A stretch of 64,000 nt of DNA, taken from Pararhodobacter aggregans. Its GTDB lineage: Bacteria > Pseudomonadota > Alphaproteobacteria > Rhodobacterales > Rhodobacteraceae. Within the stretch, counting starts at the first letter, position 1. Each line of letters begins with the position of its first letter. The DNA lies in assembly GCF_003075525.1 (NCBI RefSeq), contig NZ_QDDR01000007.1, forward strand, positions 124,001-188,000, written 5' to 3'. A program made the position numbers and the translations under genes. The notes below the pieces were generated by a model, which worked only from the letters and a program-made list of their open reading frames with translations, was not told the origin of the DNA and ran no database searches. Below, in pieces: positions 9,367-36,448 of this stretch.

Positions 9367-9963
9367 ATGACCCAATACACGCTGATCGGTGCCGCCAGCA
9401 CCCGCGCCGGCCGCGCGCTGTGGATGCTGGAAGAACTGGGCGTGCCCTATGAGCATGTCGGCGTGAAGCCGCATGCCGAGGAAGTCACCCGCCACTACCC
9501 GCGCGGCAAGGTTCCGGTCCTGCTGGTCGATGGCGAGCCGCTGACCGATTCGACGGCGATCATCCAGTATCTGGCCGATGCGCATGGCCGCTTCACCGCC
9601 GCCGCCGGAACGCTGGACCGGGCGCGGCAGGATGCGATGCTGCACCTGCTGCTGGACGAATTCGACGCGGTGCTCTGGACCTCGGCCCGGCACAGCTTCA
9701 TCCTGCCCGCCGAGCGCCGGGTGCCCGAGGTGAAGGATTCGCTGCGTTGGGAATTCTCGGTCAACCAGGCCTCGCTGGTGCGGCGGATGGGTGAGCGGCC
9801 CTATGTCACGGGCGACGATTTCACCGTGGCCGATATCGTGCTGGCGCATTGCCTGATCTGGGCGCGGGCGGCGAAATTCGAGATCACCGAACCGGCGCTG
9901 CAGGACTATGCCAGGCGCATTGCCGAGCGTCCGGCCTTCCGGCGGGTGTTCATGAAGGGCTGA
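9367..9963 (+). CDS. Glutathione S-transferase family protein
   Basis: A 198-residue soluble protein. The N-terminal thioredoxin-like domain (residues 1-76) has STRAGRALWMLEELGVPYEHV with the catalytic Ser/Arg region, a cis-Pro segment GKVPVLLVDG, and the glutathione-binding LTDSTAIIQYL (E/D-S-x-A-I). The C-terminal helical domain (about 88-198) ends YARRIAERPAFRRVF. Such enzymes conjugate or reduce electrophiles with glutathione; the substrate is not predictable. The ATG follows AGGGAGGACGCAAG. It is convergent with tamB, 7 nt away. Confidence 0.92.
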   Translation: MTQYTLIGAASTRAGRALWMLEELGVPYEHVGVKPHAEEVTRHYPRGKVPVLLVDGEPLTDSTAIIQYLADAHGRFTAAAGTLDRARQDAMLHLLLDEFDAVLWTSARHSFILPAERRVPEVKDSLRWEFSVNQASLVRRMGERPYVTGDDFTVADIVLAHCLIWARAAKFEITEPALQDYARRIAERPAFRRVFMKG

Positions 9964-9970
9964 GCCCGCC

Positions 9971-12900
9971 TCAATAGTCGCGTTCGTAGAACAGGCCGAC
10001 GCCGGAGCCGCCCGAGGTATCGGCGCGGCCCCGGAGCGTGACATTGGGCATCAGGTCCAGGTTGATCGTCACCTGGCCCTGCCCGGTCGAATCGACGCTG
10101 ACATCGGTATAGAGCCGGTCGCCGATATGCCGCCCGGCCCTGAGCTGGGTATTGCCCGCGTCATTCACCGTGAAATCGAGGTCGTCGAGGCCCATCGCCT
10201 CACGCGTGCGGGACAGGATGGAATTGTCCGCGCGCCCGGTCAGGGTGGCCACCGACATGGCCAGCTGCGCCGCCTGGAACGGGCTGAGCGAGGTCAGCGA
10301 GCGGCGGAAGATCAGCCGCGCCATCACCTCGTCCTCGGGCAGTTCGGGGACCGAGGAGAAGCTGATCTCAGGACTGTCCGCCTGCCCCGACAGCGTGACC
10401 GAGGTCAGCACGCCGTCGCTTTCGGTGGTGGCGGTCAGGCGGATGAAGGGCATGAAGCTGCCGACCATGCTGGCCGAGCCGTCGGTCAGGGTGAAACGGT
10501 TGCCCAAGAGGTCCAGACGGCCACGGATCAGGGTGAAATTGCCCGCGGGCACCACGGTCCGGGTGTTGCCGCCCAGGGTCAGCGTGCCGCCCAGTTCCGC
10601 GTCCAGCCCCCGGCCCCGCACGAAGACCCGCCCCGGCGCATTGAGCCGCAGGTCCAGCCTGAGCGGCACCGGCGCCGCGCCGACCCGGGTGCCCGTGGCG
10701 ATGCCCGCGTTGATGCGGGTCTGGCGGCTGGCGGCGTCCTCGGCGACATGGGTCAGGCCCTGCAGGCCGATCCCGGCCCGGCCGAGGGGCGAATTGGGGA
10801 TGCGGATCTCGGCCTCGTTCACCGTGACATCGCCCGAGACCAGCGCCCCGGCACTGAGCGGGCCGTTCAGCCGGAAGGTGCCGGACACCCGCGCATCGAA
10901 GAGCCGCGGCTGCTGCACCATCAGATCGTCGACCCGGATGCTGAGGTCGGCGCTGCTGCCCCGGTCCAGCCGGATCCCGCCCGAGATCGTCGCCCGCCCG
11001 CCCGACAGCGAATTGCCCGACAGCTCGATCTGCGCGCTGGCACCGTTCAGCCGGGCGCTGGCCTCGATATCCTGGAAGGCGACGCCGACCGCGGGCAGCG
11101 AATAGCGCCCGCCGCCCAGGCTGGCGGTGAGCCGCAGCGCCTCGAGCCCCGGGCGACCGTTCATCGACCCGTCGAACCGCACCACGCCCGAGACGCTGGC
11201 AGGTTCCAGCATCGGGTTCAGGAGCACGCTGTCGGCCTGACCGTTGAAAGCCAGCGCCACGGTGAAATCGTCGTTGATCCGCCCGGTGGTGGTGGCGTTC
11301 AGCCCCGAGGGCCCCGCCAGCCGCAGATCGACGCCATAGGCCGTGGCCCCCGCGCCGCGCGTCACGTCGCCGCCCAGCGTCACCCGCCCGCCGATGCCGG
11401 GCACCAGACGGCCGATGTTCTCGATCGCCGCGTCGATGGTGAAGCGGGCGGCGCCGGTGGCCTGCTGCACGCCGCTCACGCTGGCGCGCAGCCCGTCGGC
11501 GGTCAGCTGCACGCTGTCGATGGCGATGGCGCCGCTATCGGTCGCCGTGGCCCGGGCCATCAGCGACAGGCCGCTGCCGATCAGCGCATCGACCTGGGCG
11601 ATGCCGGTGGCGAGCGGCCCCTCACCCTCGACCGCCAGCGCGTAGCGGGTGGTGCCTGCGGCGCCGTTCATCTCGGCCCGGCCGCTGATCGCGCCCCGCC
11701 CGCCCGGGGTCAGTGCCGCCAGATCGAGCCTGAGCATCCTCAGCGTCAGGTCGGGGGCGGTGGCGGAATAGGCGCCCTCGGCCTCCATCTCCAGCCGCGG
11801 GCCCTGAAGCGAGGCCTGGACCACCTGCGTGACACCATCGGCGATGACCAGATCGGCCAGCAGCCGGTTGGTGCCGGTGAAGATCCCGCCCAGGATCCCG
11901 GCCGCGGGCAGATCGGCCAGTGCCAGATCCGAGACGGTGCCGTCCAGCTGGACCCGCGTGGCGCTGGCGGTGGTCGAGAGCCGTGCATCGAGCGCCGCCT
12001 GCCCGCCATAGCCCGCGCCCAGCCGCGAGAGATCCGAGGCGACAAGCCGCGCGCTGACATCGGCGGCGCCGGGTTCCAGCGAGCCCTCGGCCGAAAGCTG
12101 CAGCGTGCCCGCCGTCAGGCTGAGCGAGCGCAGCGTCGTGCCCTCGGTATCGCGGCGGATCGACAGCTCGATCCCGGCCTGACCGGCCAGCAGCGCGTCT
12201 GCCTCGGCAATACCGACCGAAAGGTCGCGCGTGGTCAGGTTGGACGTCAGGTCCAGCGCGCCGGTCAGCGGGTTGACGCTGCCCTGCATGTTGGCCAGCG
12301 CATGCCCGCCCAAGGGCCGCCCGGCCAGCGCGCTGAAGGCCGACAGATCCGGCGCCTCGAATTCGACATAGCCGTCGAAATTCAGCCCGGTCAGCTGGCC
12401 ATAGGCGGTGAGCGAGACGGTCTGCCCCTCGAAGGCAAGGCCGGTCAGTTCGATGGGGCTGTCGGCGCCGGGCCAGTTGAGGCTGGCAAGGCCGAAAAAG
12501 CTGCTGCCGATGGCCTGTTGCAAAGCAGGATCGGCGGCATCGACGCCCTGCGCCTGGAATTCGAAGACGCCCTCGAACAGCGGCACCTGCGCGTCACCGG
12601 GCAGGGGCGCCTGTTCGGTGGCGTTGAGCCGCCCGCGCCCGTTGAGCGTGGCGGTGGCGATGGTCAGGTCGGTCAGGTCCAGCCGGTCCATCTCGGCCCG
12701 GACCTGCCAGTCGCGCGACTGGCTTTCGTCATAGGCAATGGTCAGGTTGGCGCTGCGCAGATGCCCCGCGCCCGAGGTGCCGGGCAAGAGCACCGGCTCG
12801 CCATCCTCGCGCGAGATGCCGGCGGTCAGCTGCACCATGCGCGGCACGCCCTGGGCGCTGAAGGCGGCGCTGCCGTTCACCCGCATCGCCCGGGTCGAGA

Positions 12901-30810: not shown

Positions 30811-31220
30811 GGGGCTTCGATCTGGCCGAGGATCAGCGCGCGGATCTCGGCCGGGGGCGGTTCCTTGGCAAAGACGCTGGCCTTGACGAAGACGCAGGTG
30901 AAGCGCCCCTCGAAGCAATGCACCCCGTCCTGATACCCGCCGACGCGCCAGTCGATCGAGGTCTCGCCCAGCCTTGTCGGCGCCACCTCGCAGATCAGCC
31001 GGTGGCGCGGCGTCATCGGGGCCAGGAAATCGAGCGCCATATGCACGAAGGGCGTGCCCAGGTCGCGGTCCAGATCCATCTGGAACCAGCCGCCGCCCAG
31101 GTGATGCTCCCACCAGCCGTTGATCGCATCGAGCGCGAAACCCGGAATGCGCGCGGTGTAGACGATCTTTGCCGGGTCGCAATCGCCCCAGGCGATGCGG
31201 ATCTCGTGCCGGTAGGGCAT
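30801..31220 (-). CDS. 4-hydroxybenzoyl-CoA-type thioesterase in the box operon
   Basis: A 139-residue hotdog-fold thioesterase. The N-terminal motif AWGDCDPAKIVYTARIPGF carries the Asp-x-Asp-Pro pattern whose Asp is catalytic in the Pseudomonas 4-hydroxybenzoyl-CoA enzyme. ATG 31220 overlaps the boxA stop by one base (TGATG); a TTG one codon earlier is less likely. Its probable role is to hydrolyse benzoyl-CoA or dead-end CoA thioesters and return CoA. The 3' end carries an imperfect BoxR site that precedes boxR. Confidence 0.9.
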   Translation of the reverse strand: MPYRHEIRIAWGDCDPAKIVYTARIPGFALDAINGWWEHHLGGGWFQMDLDRDLGTPFVHMALDFLAPMTPRHRLICEVAPTRLGETSIDWRVGGYQDGVHCFEGRFTCVFVKASVFAKEPPPAEIRALILGQIEAPAG

Positions 31221-32401
31221 CAATAGGTCTCGACGTGGTAGCGGCCTTCATCGCGCATCGCGTCGCGGGTGGCTTCCCAGGCCAGGCCCGTGGATTCGGC
31301 GATGTTCTTGAAGGCCAGCTCGACGCCCTGCTCCATCCCGCGCAGCCCGCAGATGTAGATATGCGTCTGCGGATCGGCCAGCAGGTTGGCGACGGCCTCC
31401 TGTTCGACCATCATGCGGTCCTGCACGTATTCCTTGTCGACCCCCGGGATCCGGCTGAAGACCAGATGCTTCTTCAGCAGCCGCTCGGGCACTTTGTTGA
31501 GCGGGCCGAAATAGGGCAGCGAATCGGGGGTGCGGGCGCCGAAGAACATGATCATGTCGCCGCTGCCGCCCGCTTGCGCCCGCTGGCGGCGCATGGTGAA
31601 GGCGCGGAACGGGGCCGATCCGGTGCCGGTGCAGATCATCAGCATCCGCGCCGCGCTGTCCTCGGGCATGAGGAAGGTGGCGCCAAAGGGGCCGGTGACC
31701 TTCACCTCGTCGCCGATCTTCAGATCGCAGACATAGTTGGAACAAAGCCCCTGCACCTCGCGCTTCACGGTGAGCGAGAGGTTGTTGAAATTCGGCCGCT
31801 CGCCATCGCGCGGCGAGCTGACGGAATAGAGCCGCGGCAGGTGCGGCTTGCCCTCGGCATCCGTGCCGGGCGGGATGATGCCGATGGACTGGCCTTCGAG
31901 CACCGGCATCGGCTGGGCGCCGAAATCGAGGATGATATGGCGCACGTCCGAGCCGGATTCGCCGCTGGTCAGGCGGAAATTGCCGGTGACCTTGGCGGTG
32001 GCGGGCTTGCCGAGGTTATAGAGGTTCACGGTGGGCTTGGTGGCCGTCGCCGGAGCCTTCGACTTGCCGCCCGCGCCCTTGTGGGCCTCGGCCAGCAAGG
32101 CCTCCATCGCGTCGTCCAGCGCCTCGACGCCCGACGAGCTGCCGATCTCCGCCTGCGCGGGCAATTCCTGCCAGCCGAATTGCTCGTCCAGCGAATAGGG
32201 GGTTTCGACCACGCGCCATTCGTCGATGGACCCCGTTGGGCAGACCGGAATGCAATCCATGCAGAAATCGCATTTTTCGGCATCGACCACGACGTTGTTG
32301 TCGTCATGGGTGATCGCCTCGACCGGGCAGGTCATCTCGCAGGTGTAGCAGCGGATGCAGATTTCCGGGTCGATCAGATGCTGTTTCAGGGGCTTGTTCA
32401 T
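31220..32401 (-). CDS. boxA: Benzoyl-CoA 2,3-epoxidase reductase subunit BoxA
   Basis: A 393-residue NADPH:ferredoxin-type reductase that delivers electrons to the BoxB oxygenase. The N-terminus has two complete [4Fe-4S] motifs, CIRCYTCEMTCP and CDFCMDCIPVCP. The C-terminal ferredoxin-NADP reductase part includes PRLYSVSSPRDG for FAD and CTGTGSAPFRAF for the nucleotide, and ends YHVETY with a terminal aromatic residue. Start ATG 32401 overlaps the stop of a 51-residue four-cysteine gene (ATGA). It acts in the cytosol on the aerobic CoA-dependent benzoate route. Confidence 0.97.
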   Translation of the reverse strand: MNKPLKQHLIDPEICIRCYTCEMTCPVEAITHDDNNVVVDAEKCDFCMDCIPVCPTGSIDEWRVVETPYSLDEQFGWQELPAQAEIGSSSGVEALDDAMEALLAEAHKGAGGKSKAPATATKPTVNLYNLGKPATAKVTGNFRLTSGESGSDVRHIILDFGAQPMPVLEGQSIGIIPPGTDAEGKPHLPRLYSVSSPRDGERPNFNNLSLTVKREVQGLCSNYVCDLKIGDEVKVTGPFGATFLMPEDSAARMLMICTGTGSAPFRAFTMRRQRAQAGGSGDMIMFFGARTPDSLPYFGPLNKVPERLLKKHLVFSRIPGVDKEYVQDRMMVEQEAVANLLADPQTHIYICGLRGMEQGVELAFKNIAESTGLAWEATRDAMRDEGRYHVETY

Positions 32402-32553
32402 GCGCGGTGTGTCCGGGGATGCAGCACCGTCTCGGGCAGACGGCTCAGTTCGAGAAGGCTCCAGCACAGGCCGGCGCAATCGGCGCAGCCGAGGCAGGCG
32501 GCATCGCTGCGGGGTGGGCGCGGGGCTTGCAGGGCGGAACGTTCAACGGGCAT
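32398..32553 (-). CDS. 51-residue protein with one ferredoxin-type Cys motif, upstream of boxA
   Basis: From ATG 32553, preceded by GGGAGG at 6 nt, this gene encodes MPVERSALQAPRPPRSDAA, then CLGCADCAGLC, and ends at HRA. The cysteines at 20, 23, 26 and 30 have the C-x2-C-x2-C-x3-C spacing of a [4Fe-4S] ferredoxin half, but proline does not follow the last Cys. Its TGA overlaps the boxA ATG (ATGA), so the two are translationally coupled. I do not recognise a family. It could be an accessory electron carrier, a cluster-delivery peptide, or a leader peptide whose translation sets boxA expression. Confidence 0.7.
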   Translation of the reverse strand: MPVERSALQAPRPPRSDAACLGCADCAGLCWSLLELSRLPETVLHPRTHRA

Positions 32554-32639
32554 CGGGACCTCCCTTCCGTTTGCCGGGCTGGCAGGCAGGGGCCGAGGGC
32601 CCCCGCCCTTCGTCGTCGCGGGCGAGCAGCGCGGCAGGC

Positions 32640-32679: not shown

Positions 32680-34131
32680 TCACGCCATGTGCAGCTTCAC
32701 ATATTCGAAGTCGCCGGGCTTGTTGTCGATCCCCACTTTCGGCGGCGCGATCCAGCCGGCGAATTTGCCGGGCTCGTAGCAGGGCTTCATCAGCGACTGG
32801 ATGAAATCGCCATCGGCGCGGGTCGGCAGCCAGTTGTCGCGCTGCGCGTCGTACTCGGCGCCCGACAGCAGGTTCCCGTCCGGGTCGAAGGCCTTGCCCT
32901 TGAAGACACCGATCTGGCGGTGGAAGCTCTCGTGCGGCAGCTTCAGCTCGAACTGGATCCCCGATTTCTCGATGATCTTGTTCCAGCGGCCGACCCCGCC
33001 CGCCGCGTCGCGGGTGTAATCGTCGCGCAGGCGCATGTTGATCGCAGTCAGGGCCGGAACCTCGTGGCGGATCAGCTTGCCGTCGACGAAATCCCAGACC
33101 GGATAGGTGTCGCCCTTCAGCTGGTGGTCGTCGGTCAGGCGGTGCTCCATGTAGCGGCCCTTGACCCCGGCGTTGAACGCGTTGGCGGCGTTGGTCGAGA
33201 CTTCCTGGCCGAACAGATCCAGGGACAGCGTATAGTGCAGGTTCAGCTTCTTCTGGATCGTCGGCAGGTCGATCACGCCGAGGGCCCGGATGCGGTCGAT
33301 CTCGAAGGGGTCGTCGATGCCGTTCTCGGCCATCACCTGACAAGTGCGTTCGATCACCCGGCCGACCCCGGTCTCGCCCACGAACATGTGGTGCGCTTCC
33401 TCGGTCAGCATGAAGCGGCAGGTGCGCGACAGCGGGTCGAAGCCCGATTGTGCGAGCGATTCCAGCTGCATCTTGCCGTCGCGGTCGGTGAAATAGGTGA
33501 ACATGAAGAAGGACAGCCAGTCCGGCGTTTCTTCGTTGAAGGCGCCCAGCATGCGCGGCGCTTCTTCCGAGCCCGAGGAGCGGACCAGCAGGTCATCAGC
33601 CTCTTCCCGGCCGTCCTTGCCGAAGTATTTCTGCAGCAGATAGACCATGGCCCAGAGGTGGCGGCCCTCCTCGACGTTCACCTGGAACAGGTTGCGCATG
33701 TCATAGAGGGACGGCGCGGTCAGGCCGAGGAAGCGCTGCTGCTCGACCGAGCCGGGCTCGGTATCGCCCTGGATGACGATGAGGCGCTTGAGCATGTTGC
33801 GGTATTCGCCGGGGACTTCCTGCCAGGCGGGCTGGCCCGCGTGTTCGCCACAGGGGATCACGCGCCCCTCGACCTGCGGGGCCAGCAGGATGCCCCAGCG
33901 GTATTCCGGCATCTTCACATAGTCGAACTTGGCCCAGCCCTTGGGGTCGACCGACACGGCGGTGCGCAGGTAGACCATCGACTTCTGGAAGTTCTGCGGG
34001 ATCAGGTCATTCCACCAGTTGATGTACCCGGGGTGCCATTTCTCCAGCGCCTTGAGCACGCGCTTGTCGTTCGAGAGACCCACGTTGTTGGGGATCTGGG
34101 TGTCGTAGCTGACGTTGATGAGGTCGATCAT
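32680..34131 (-). CDS. boxB: Benzoyl-CoA 2,3-epoxidase oxygenase subunit BoxB
   Basis: A 483-residue class I di-iron monooxygenase that converts benzoyl-CoA to 2,3-epoxybenzoyl-CoA using O2 and electrons from BoxA. The carboxylate/histidine motifs are VNVEEGRHLWAMVYLL and LTEEAHHMFVGETG, both intact, and VYLRTAVSVDPKGWAKFDYV is BoxB-typical. ATG 34131 follows a strong GGAGGAGA. An in-frame extension to 34206 comes from the repeat DNA between boxC and boxB and is not coding. The product is an electrophilic epoxide handled by BoxC. Confidence 0.97.
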   Translation of the reverse strand: MIDLINVSYDTQIPNNVGLSNDKRVLKALEKWHPGYINWWNDLIPQNFQKSMVYLRTAVSVDPKGWAKFDYVKMPEYRWGILLAPQVEGRVIPCGEHAGQPAWQEVPGEYRNMLKRLIVIQGDTEPGSVEQQRFLGLTAPSLYDMRNLFQVNVEEGRHLWAMVYLLQKYFGKDGREEADDLLVRSSGSEEAPRMLGAFNEETPDWLSFFMFTYFTDRDGKMQLESLAQSGFDPLSRTCRFMLTEEAHHMFVGETGVGRVIERTCQVMAENGIDDPFEIDRIRALGVIDLPTIQKKLNLHYTLSLDLFGQEVSTNAANAFNAGVKGRYMEHRLTDDHQLKGDTYPVWDFVDGKLIRHEVPALTAINMRLRDDYTRDAAGGVGRWNKIIEKSGIQFELKLPHESFHRQIGVFKGKAFDPDGNLLSGAEYDAQRDNWLPTRADGDFIQSLMKPCYEPGKFAGWIAPPKVGIDNKPGDFEYVKLHMA

Positions 34132-36012: not shown

Positions 36013-36026
36013 TGCACTATAGTGCA
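36013..36026. promoter_or_regulatory. Perfect BoxR operator (TGCA-CTATAG-TGCA)
   Basis: A perfect 14-bp palindrome TGCACTATAGTGCA, 136 nt upstream of the boxC start. This is the TGCA-N6-TGCA pattern bound by BzdR and BoxR. It overlaps the TAG stop codon (36017-36019) of the upstream DUF309 gene. A lone TGCA also occurs at 35979-35982. Confidence 0.8.
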
Positions 36027-36448
36027 TTTTCCGCCCGAATGCGAGCCTCAAGCTCGGCAACCTGCCGCCGATCCAGCCCCATGACCGACTCACCGCCGCG
36101 CCGGAACCCTTCGCGCAGGGCAGCCTCGGCCAGCGGCAGGATGCGGACAGCGGCTGCCTCGCGACCCATGCGGCGCTTCAACCCGGCGTTGGCCAGCTGG
36201 ATCAGGCCCCGCATGAGTTCCCGCTCGGCGGAAGCCTGCGGCAGGGCGGACCAGATCCCTTCCCAGAATTCATGCGCTTCCCAGTAATAGCCAGCGCGAA
36301 AGGCCGAAAGCCCGCCCTGAAAGGCGGGGCTGAGGGCCAGAGCCTCGGGCGAGAGCGCCTCAAGACCCGCGAGGGCATGGGCAAAGATTGCCGGATCCGG
36401 GCGCGGGTTGCGGCCCGGCAGATGCGGCGCGGGGGGCAGCGGGGTCAC
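36017..36448 (-). CDS. DUF309 domain-containing protein
   Basis: A 143-residue soluble helical protein beginning at GTG 36448, overlapped by the hydrolase stop (GTGA). The family motif is FRAGYYWEAHEFWEGIW (about residues 51-67), with conserved His-Glu, followed by GLIQLANAGLKRRMGRE. DUF309 has no established reaction; its Glu/His cluster suggests a metal or small-ligand site. It is the last gene of the bclA-hydrolase-DUF309 unit, and its stop codon is part of the BoxR operator for boxC. Involvement in benzoate metabolism is inferred from position only. Confidence 0.85.
   Translation of the reverse strand: MTPLPPAPHLPGRNPRPDPAIFAHALAGLEALSPEALALSPAFQGGLSAFRAGYYWEAHEFWEGIWSALPQASAERELMRGLIQLANAGLKRRMGREAAAVRILPLAEAALREGFRRGGESVMGLDRRQVAELEARIRAENAL

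Follow-up and report, generated by a model that had tools for sequence, protein, structure and literature searches.

A small four-cysteine protein encoded next to boxB defines a conserved protein family in Rhodobacteraceae and is a candidate accessory of benzoyl-CoA epoxidase

Small extra proteins are encoded in diiron oxygenase operons, MmoD and the DmpK-type proteins among them, and small iron-sulfur proteins can act in the repair of oxygenases, as do the XylT-like ferredoxins, which are of the plant-type [2Fe-2S] kind and reactivate catechol 2,3-dioxygenase. A further case is PaaD, a small accessory protein encoded with PaaABCE, a CoA-ester diiron epoxidase. In the available part of a review (PMC4498308), PaaD is given as a protein of about 170 residues that carries DUF59, is indispensable for phenylacetyl-CoA epoxidase in living cells although the enzyme works without it in vitro, and possibly serves to insert iron into PaaE or PaaA. 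The same part presents the related Box system as a two-part enzyme, composed of BoxA and BoxB, in which minor amounts of BoxA are sufficient for BoxB, and it describes no third carrier (PMC4498308). We report here on a 51-codon gene for a small four-cysteine protein, named SM for the present purpose, that is located between boxB and boxA; no mention of it was found in searches of the openly licensed literature, including the available parts of PMC4498308 and PMC9873259.

The stretch of DNA that was analysed, hereafter the window, comprises 64,000 nucleotides from Pararhodobacter aggregans. Its minus strand carries boxB (32680..34131), which encodes the diiron benzoyl-CoA 2,3-epoxidase (TIGR03225, E 1.4e-275; 914.4 bits against a cut-off of 499.1), and boxA (31220..32401), which encodes the reductase subunit of the same enzyme (TIGR03224, E 3.8e-161; 536.6 bits against a cut-off of 459.2). 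The SM gene lies on that strand at 32398..32553 and encodes 51 residues followed by a stop, MPVERSALQAPRPPRSDAACLGCADCAGLCWSLLELSRLPETVLHPRTHRA. A ribosome-binding site, GGAGGT, is found 4 bases upstream of its ATG (32558..32563 in plus-strand coordinates), and its stop codon overlaps the boxA start in an ATGA (32398..32401). A preliminary description of this DNA had proposed an overlooked gene of this length with a good ribosome-binding site and an ATGA overlap with boxA, and all three features are present in the sequence. The cysteines are residues 20, 23, 26 and 30, spaced C-x2-C-x2-C-x3-C, and are contained in a loop of the form C-x2-C-x2-C-x-G-x-C (codons 20-30, 32464..32496), recognized from the tblastn loci and alignment A1 described below; a second conserved motif, [LVI]-P-x-x-[VILM]-[LIV], is apparent in the same alignment and reads LPETVL in the window (codons 39-44, 32422..32439). 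The cysteine spacing had also been likened to that of the BoxA motifs, correctly so, since BoxA contains it twice (CIRCYTCEMTC and CDFCMDCIPVC). These two and SM are the only three matches to C-x2-C-x2-C-x3-C in all six frames of the window, versus a mean of 0.07 matches in 30 order-2 Markov copies of it. SM is present as a single copy in this genome. The box cluster of the window also includes a gene for a DUF309 protein (36017-36448, minus strand), relatives of which adjoin transporter-like genes at two other loci (L031 and L066). When the boxA-boxB DNA of the window was compared with a plasmid collection, 13 records matched, none of them over more than 80% of the query.

To follow the frame across related organisms, we searched a sample of 394 genomes from the same family, Rhodobacteraceae. 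With tblastn, the only additional member of the genus that had been sampled yielded a copy with 76% identity (E 8.4e-21), and matches in other genera reached E 5.9e-10 at best. The C-x2-C-x2-C-x3-C pattern was found in an open frame at all 30 of the best loci, which had been chosen on score alone, with the motif playing no part in the choice. Thus, the frame and its cysteines, whose conservation the preliminary description had proposed to check in this way, are shared across genera. Among 46 further stretches that were fetched, 43 contain C-x2-C-x2-C-x-G-x-C followed by the proline; the motif is absent from the other three (L065, L075 and L076), which were dropped as chance matches. In the resulting alignment, A1, of 63 distinct rows, C20, C23, C26, G28, C30 and P40 are invariant, partly by construction, as rows were selected by the cysteine-glycine-proline pattern, and L44 is conserved in at least 90%. 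Conservation beyond the cysteines is seen as MxIxR near the start and xLPxxVL near the end. The dN/dS ratio between the window copy and the same-genus copy is 0.54, compared to 0.18 for boxA of the same pair, and ranges from 0.12 to 0.60 in 14 other close pairs. Because all of these values are below 1, purifying selection acts on SM, although more weakly than on boxA. SM is therefore a real protein-coding gene, representing a conserved family inside Rhodobacteraceae. That the open frame arose by chance, or is what remains of a BoxA ferredoxin domain as a pseudogene, is hardly credible: spurious open frames are abundant in high-GC DNA, and the cysteine spacing equals that of BoxA, but the frame is conserved across genera with dN/dS below 1, and a comparison by hhalign with 13 BoxA ferredoxin domains aligned only 15 columns, with a probability of 2%. 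Derivation of SM as a duplicated BoxA domain was rejected on the same profile comparison.

What kind of protein SM might be is suggested mainly by its cysteine loop. C-x2-C-x2-C is the spacing typical of [4Fe-4S] loops, and four cysteines so spaced within eleven residues speak for an iron-sulfur cluster rather than a zinc finger. Database matches point in the same direction with low significance. Neither Pfam nor NCBIfam contained a family that the window protein matched, even with the threshold relaxed to E <= 10, and other members gave weak E values only among the matches listed at E <= 1: the best Pfam value over 63 members was 0.00054, to Fer4_21, Fer4_2 was matched weakly by 20 of the 63 (best E 0.0095), and NCBIfam matches were scattered over iron-sulfur families (best E 0.001). 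Compared to solved structures, the SM profile aligned only with the cluster loops of PsaC and ferredoxins, over 17 positions (best E 7.4e-5). Two AlphaFold2 models were weak (mean pLDDT 69 and 71, pTM 0.33); the one from a central member predicts, at low confidence, a helix, the cysteine loop and a second helix, unlike the ferredoxin fold, and a Foldseek search with this model gave no PDB match. SM shares its loop with the [4Fe-4S] ferredoxins (the Fer4 group, the BoxA N-terminus and PsaC) but has a single set of cysteines and no recognizable likeness beyond the loop, and the window copy lacks the proline by which the fourth cysteine is followed in the BoxA loops. SM may be the single-cluster ferredoxin that the preliminary description suggested, but a similarity confined to the loop does not establish it; the two other roles suggested there, iron-sulfur donor and sensor peptide, are hypothetical. 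We consider SM to be a new family of small, putatively metal-binding accessory proteins, as judged from its sequence; a [4Fe-4S] site is the most likely form of the metal, and another metal such as zinc or copper is conceivable.

The distribution of SM follows that of boxB closely. A profile search detected relatives in 66 of the 394 family genomes at E <= 1e-8; at E <= 0.01 there are 79, and the 13 weak ones (E > 1e-8) were not counted, although one of them, G302, has a real boxB neighbour. With boxB and boxA scored as not detected unless matched at E <= 1e-60 and E <= 1e-30, respectively, boxB is present in 82 genomes. SM and boxB occur together in 58, SM without boxB in 8, and boxB without an SM match in 24, so that SM is found in 58 of 82 boxB genomes versus 8 of 312 boxB-less ones (Fisher p 6e-41, uncorrected for kinship). 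A diverged form was identified by eye in 4 of the 24 (G017, G139, G240 and G302), and in two others (G102 and G344) the surroundings of boxB were cut by contig ends or unfetched. This leaves 80 boxB genomes of the family in which the surroundings could be read, and in 18 of them SM was not recognized; one of the 18 (G109) has a short frame with cysteines that lacks the pattern. In 16 of the 18, boxA directly follows boxB with gaps of 2-208 bases, and in the remaining two (G056 and G378) a flavodoxin-like gene follows. SM appears to be dispensable, as these 18 genomes carry boxB without it. They are also smaller than the others (median 3.6 versus 4.35 Mb, n=18 versus 62, p 8e-5, uncorrected for kinship).

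The search was also extended beyond the family. Among 385 genomes sampled across the class, the window's genome was alone in giving a strong match, and two others matched weakly and in part only (E 5e-4 and 8e-4). A phylum-wide sample included boxB in 35 of 398 genomes, 25 of them outside the family, and SM was absent from all 21 of the boxB loci examined among these 25 (about 1.5 kb to either side, on the boxB strand). At ten boxB loci that belong to other families within the class (L110-L117, L120 and L135), no boxA was present within about 1.5 kb. When the plasmid collection was searched by tblastn with one SM relative (L023), no match was obtained at E <= 1, and a contig search with a single relative returned two loci, one in Flavimaricola marinus (100%, likely the query's own genome) and one in a Roseovarius MAG (55%).

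The position of SM within box clusters is highly uniform. All 57 intact boxB-linked copies directly follow boxB on the same strand, with the first SM cysteine 101-286 bases past the boxB stop; a further genome, G009 (L103), has both genes with the SM frame broken over two frames, and is not included in the 57. boxA is next after SM in 53 of the 57. In the remaining four (G080, G213, G220 and G390) it is not beside SM on the fetched stretch, being located on another contig in G080 and G213 and giving no match in the genomes of G390 and G220, the latter 75% complete. At the loci of these last two genomes (L045 in G390, L066 in G220), the order is boxB, SM and a BoxR-like gene. The overlap between SM and boxA is 4 bases in 36 of the 53 and 1 base in 3 more. 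Such overlaps, together with the clustering of the cysteine codons, might indicate a leader peptide whose translation, by coupled stop and start or by stalling at cysteine codons, regulates boxA and whose product is inert. We regard this as very unlikely, given the conserved residues other than cysteine at both ends of the protein, the purifying selection, the 4 of 57 copies that have no boxA downstream on the fetched stretch, and the copies in genomes without a detected boxA.

Five genomes (G056, G139, G240, G302 and G378) have a flavodoxin-like gene after boxB and gave no boxA match at E <= 1e-30. Both genes tested (G302 and G240) match Pfam Flavodoxin_1, and the other three were labelled by reading their translations. 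Loci with a flavodoxin-like gene after boxB are L142 (gene at 9839-10297, minus strand), L143 (5482-5946), L083, L093, L101 and L136, the last from G953 and recognized by eye. A flavodoxin-like gene where boxA is expected is an unusual reductase arrangement for BoxB. Three of the five genomes (G139, G240 and G302) retain an SM variant between boxB and the flavodoxin-like gene, with the loop altered to C-x3-C-x2-C-x-G-x-C and a changed C-terminus. Since the variant follows boxB in three genomes with no detected boxA, BoxB rather than BoxA is the more plausible partner. The preliminary description had proposed SM as an accessory of benzoyl-CoA epoxidase and stressed its relation to BoxA. The first part is upheld by the strong gene linkage and the usual overlap with boxA; a special tie to BoxA is not borne out, because SM follows boxB, is kept as a variant in these genomes where boxA was not detected, and occurs in eight genomes as a lone copy.

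These genomes also bear on the possibility that SM is an electron carrier, passing electrons through a single cluster to BoxB from its reductase, whether this is BoxA or the flavodoxin-like protein. Its gene sits between those of the oxygenase and the reductase, and both its cysteine spacing and its C-terminal motif have changed together with the flavodoxin-like gene, as if to suit a new redox partner. However, the BoxB proteins of the three variant genomes form one clade (support 96), and the change therefore represents a single event. In addition, the 16 SM-less genomes with boxA directly after boxB must work without such a carrier, SM copies exist where boxA and boxB were not detected, and the minor need for BoxA and the lack of a third carrier in the available part of the review (PMC4498308) do not call for one. 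An electron carrier is consequently a doubtful reading, though nearly as likely as the one we prefer, in which SM assists BoxB.

The copies without a box cluster suggest another alternative. Eight of the 66 SM genomes (G106, G143, G193, G217, G239, G266, G332 and G389) have neither boxA nor boxB detected; the copy in G143 (L105) is split over two frames and the other seven are intact. The intact copies score from 87.2 to 57.2 bits, among the boxB-linked copies, and four of the seven fall within the upper 37 rows of the match list, scores to be read with the fact that the profile was built with lone copies included. Four lone copies (G106, G193, G239 and G389) adjoin genes for a LacI-like and an AlkZ-like protein, families that were assigned from one copy each and extended to the rest by blastp. 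The same pair flanks boxB in G220 and, judging by sequence starts, in G302, and therefore these four copies may have been left behind when box clusters were lost. Near box genes or lone SM, the pair recurs at L036, L037, L057, L059, L066 and L142. Two others are in unrelated surroundings, next to TupA-like (below the family cut-off) and PBP/HTH genes in G332 (L033), and after an HpaI-like aldolase gene in G217 (L035), where the nearby genes presumably encode a zinc-type ABC transporter. G383 carries a second SM copy beside a BoxR-like regulator, separate from its boxB-boxA copy. No partner common to the lone copies was found in their surroundings. Either they are remnants of lost box clusters or SM has a role without BoxAB, and because of the seven intact copies and the split one, a role with BoxB only is excluded as a general rule unless the losses were recent. 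SM might then be a stand-alone iron, redox or metal-responsive protein with a role of its own that mostly travels with box genes, as the high-scoring intact copies and the two in unrelated surroundings would suggest; we consider this unlikely, as 58 of the 66 SM genomes carry boxB and four of the lone copies may be such remnants.

To place the gene in the history of its neighbour, we computed a rapid tree from 90 BoxB rows, representing 58 genomes with SM, 4 with diverged forms, 18 without it and 10 from other families. All SM-linked BoxB proteins were contained in one clade of 76 rows (support 98), which also includes 13 SM-less rows and one row from another family. The presence of SM requires at least 11 changes on this tree, and fits one gain followed by repeated losses; gain and loss cannot be separated from the tree alone.

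Together, these observations lead us to favour, tentatively and at somewhat less than even confidence, the view that SM binds metal, probably as a [4Fe-4S] cluster, and assists the diiron epoxidase BoxB without being obligatory for it. This reading is favoured because BoxB, a diiron enzyme, is the constant neighbour. SM would be small and soluble, with a single metal loop of four cysteines between two short helices, co-produced with BoxB and its reductase, and it would keep the BoxB diiron centre loaded or re-reduced, presumably by contact with BoxB, either through off-pathway reactivation or by supplying iron and electrons. The proposal is modelled on PaaD, which is required in vivo only. The suggested role is similar, but SM has about 50-60 residues, and DUF59 is absent both from the window protein (Pfam E <= 10) and from the list of 21 families obtained with the 63 members. 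MmoD and the DmpK-type accessories are comparable by description alone, as small extra proteins, and the XylT-like ferredoxins in the concept of oxygenase repair by a small iron-sulfur protein, their cluster being of another type. Against a helper of BoxB stand the two of five flavodoxin-like-gene genomes that lack SM, the BoxB proteins at the loci examined outside the family, which manage without it, and the weak structure prediction. A more elaborate and quite improbable extension would make SM a 'half-ferredoxin', a one-loop protein of 50-60 residues whose iron-sulfur centre is shared or formed by a homodimer. It would have arisen once in the family, would serve BoxB whichever reductase is present, would have been retuned (C-x3-C) when the flavodoxin-like protein replaced BoxA, and would have acquired a second role in lineages from which the box pathway was lost.

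The case of SM shows that length cut-offs can hide a short gene even within a well-known pathway. As a third gene conserved across the majority of boxB clusters in a large family, it would represent a missing component of the Box system, small and easily made. With SM, it can also be tested directly whether a diiron epoxidase that stands alone depends on a helper in the cell, as the Paa enzyme does on PaaD.
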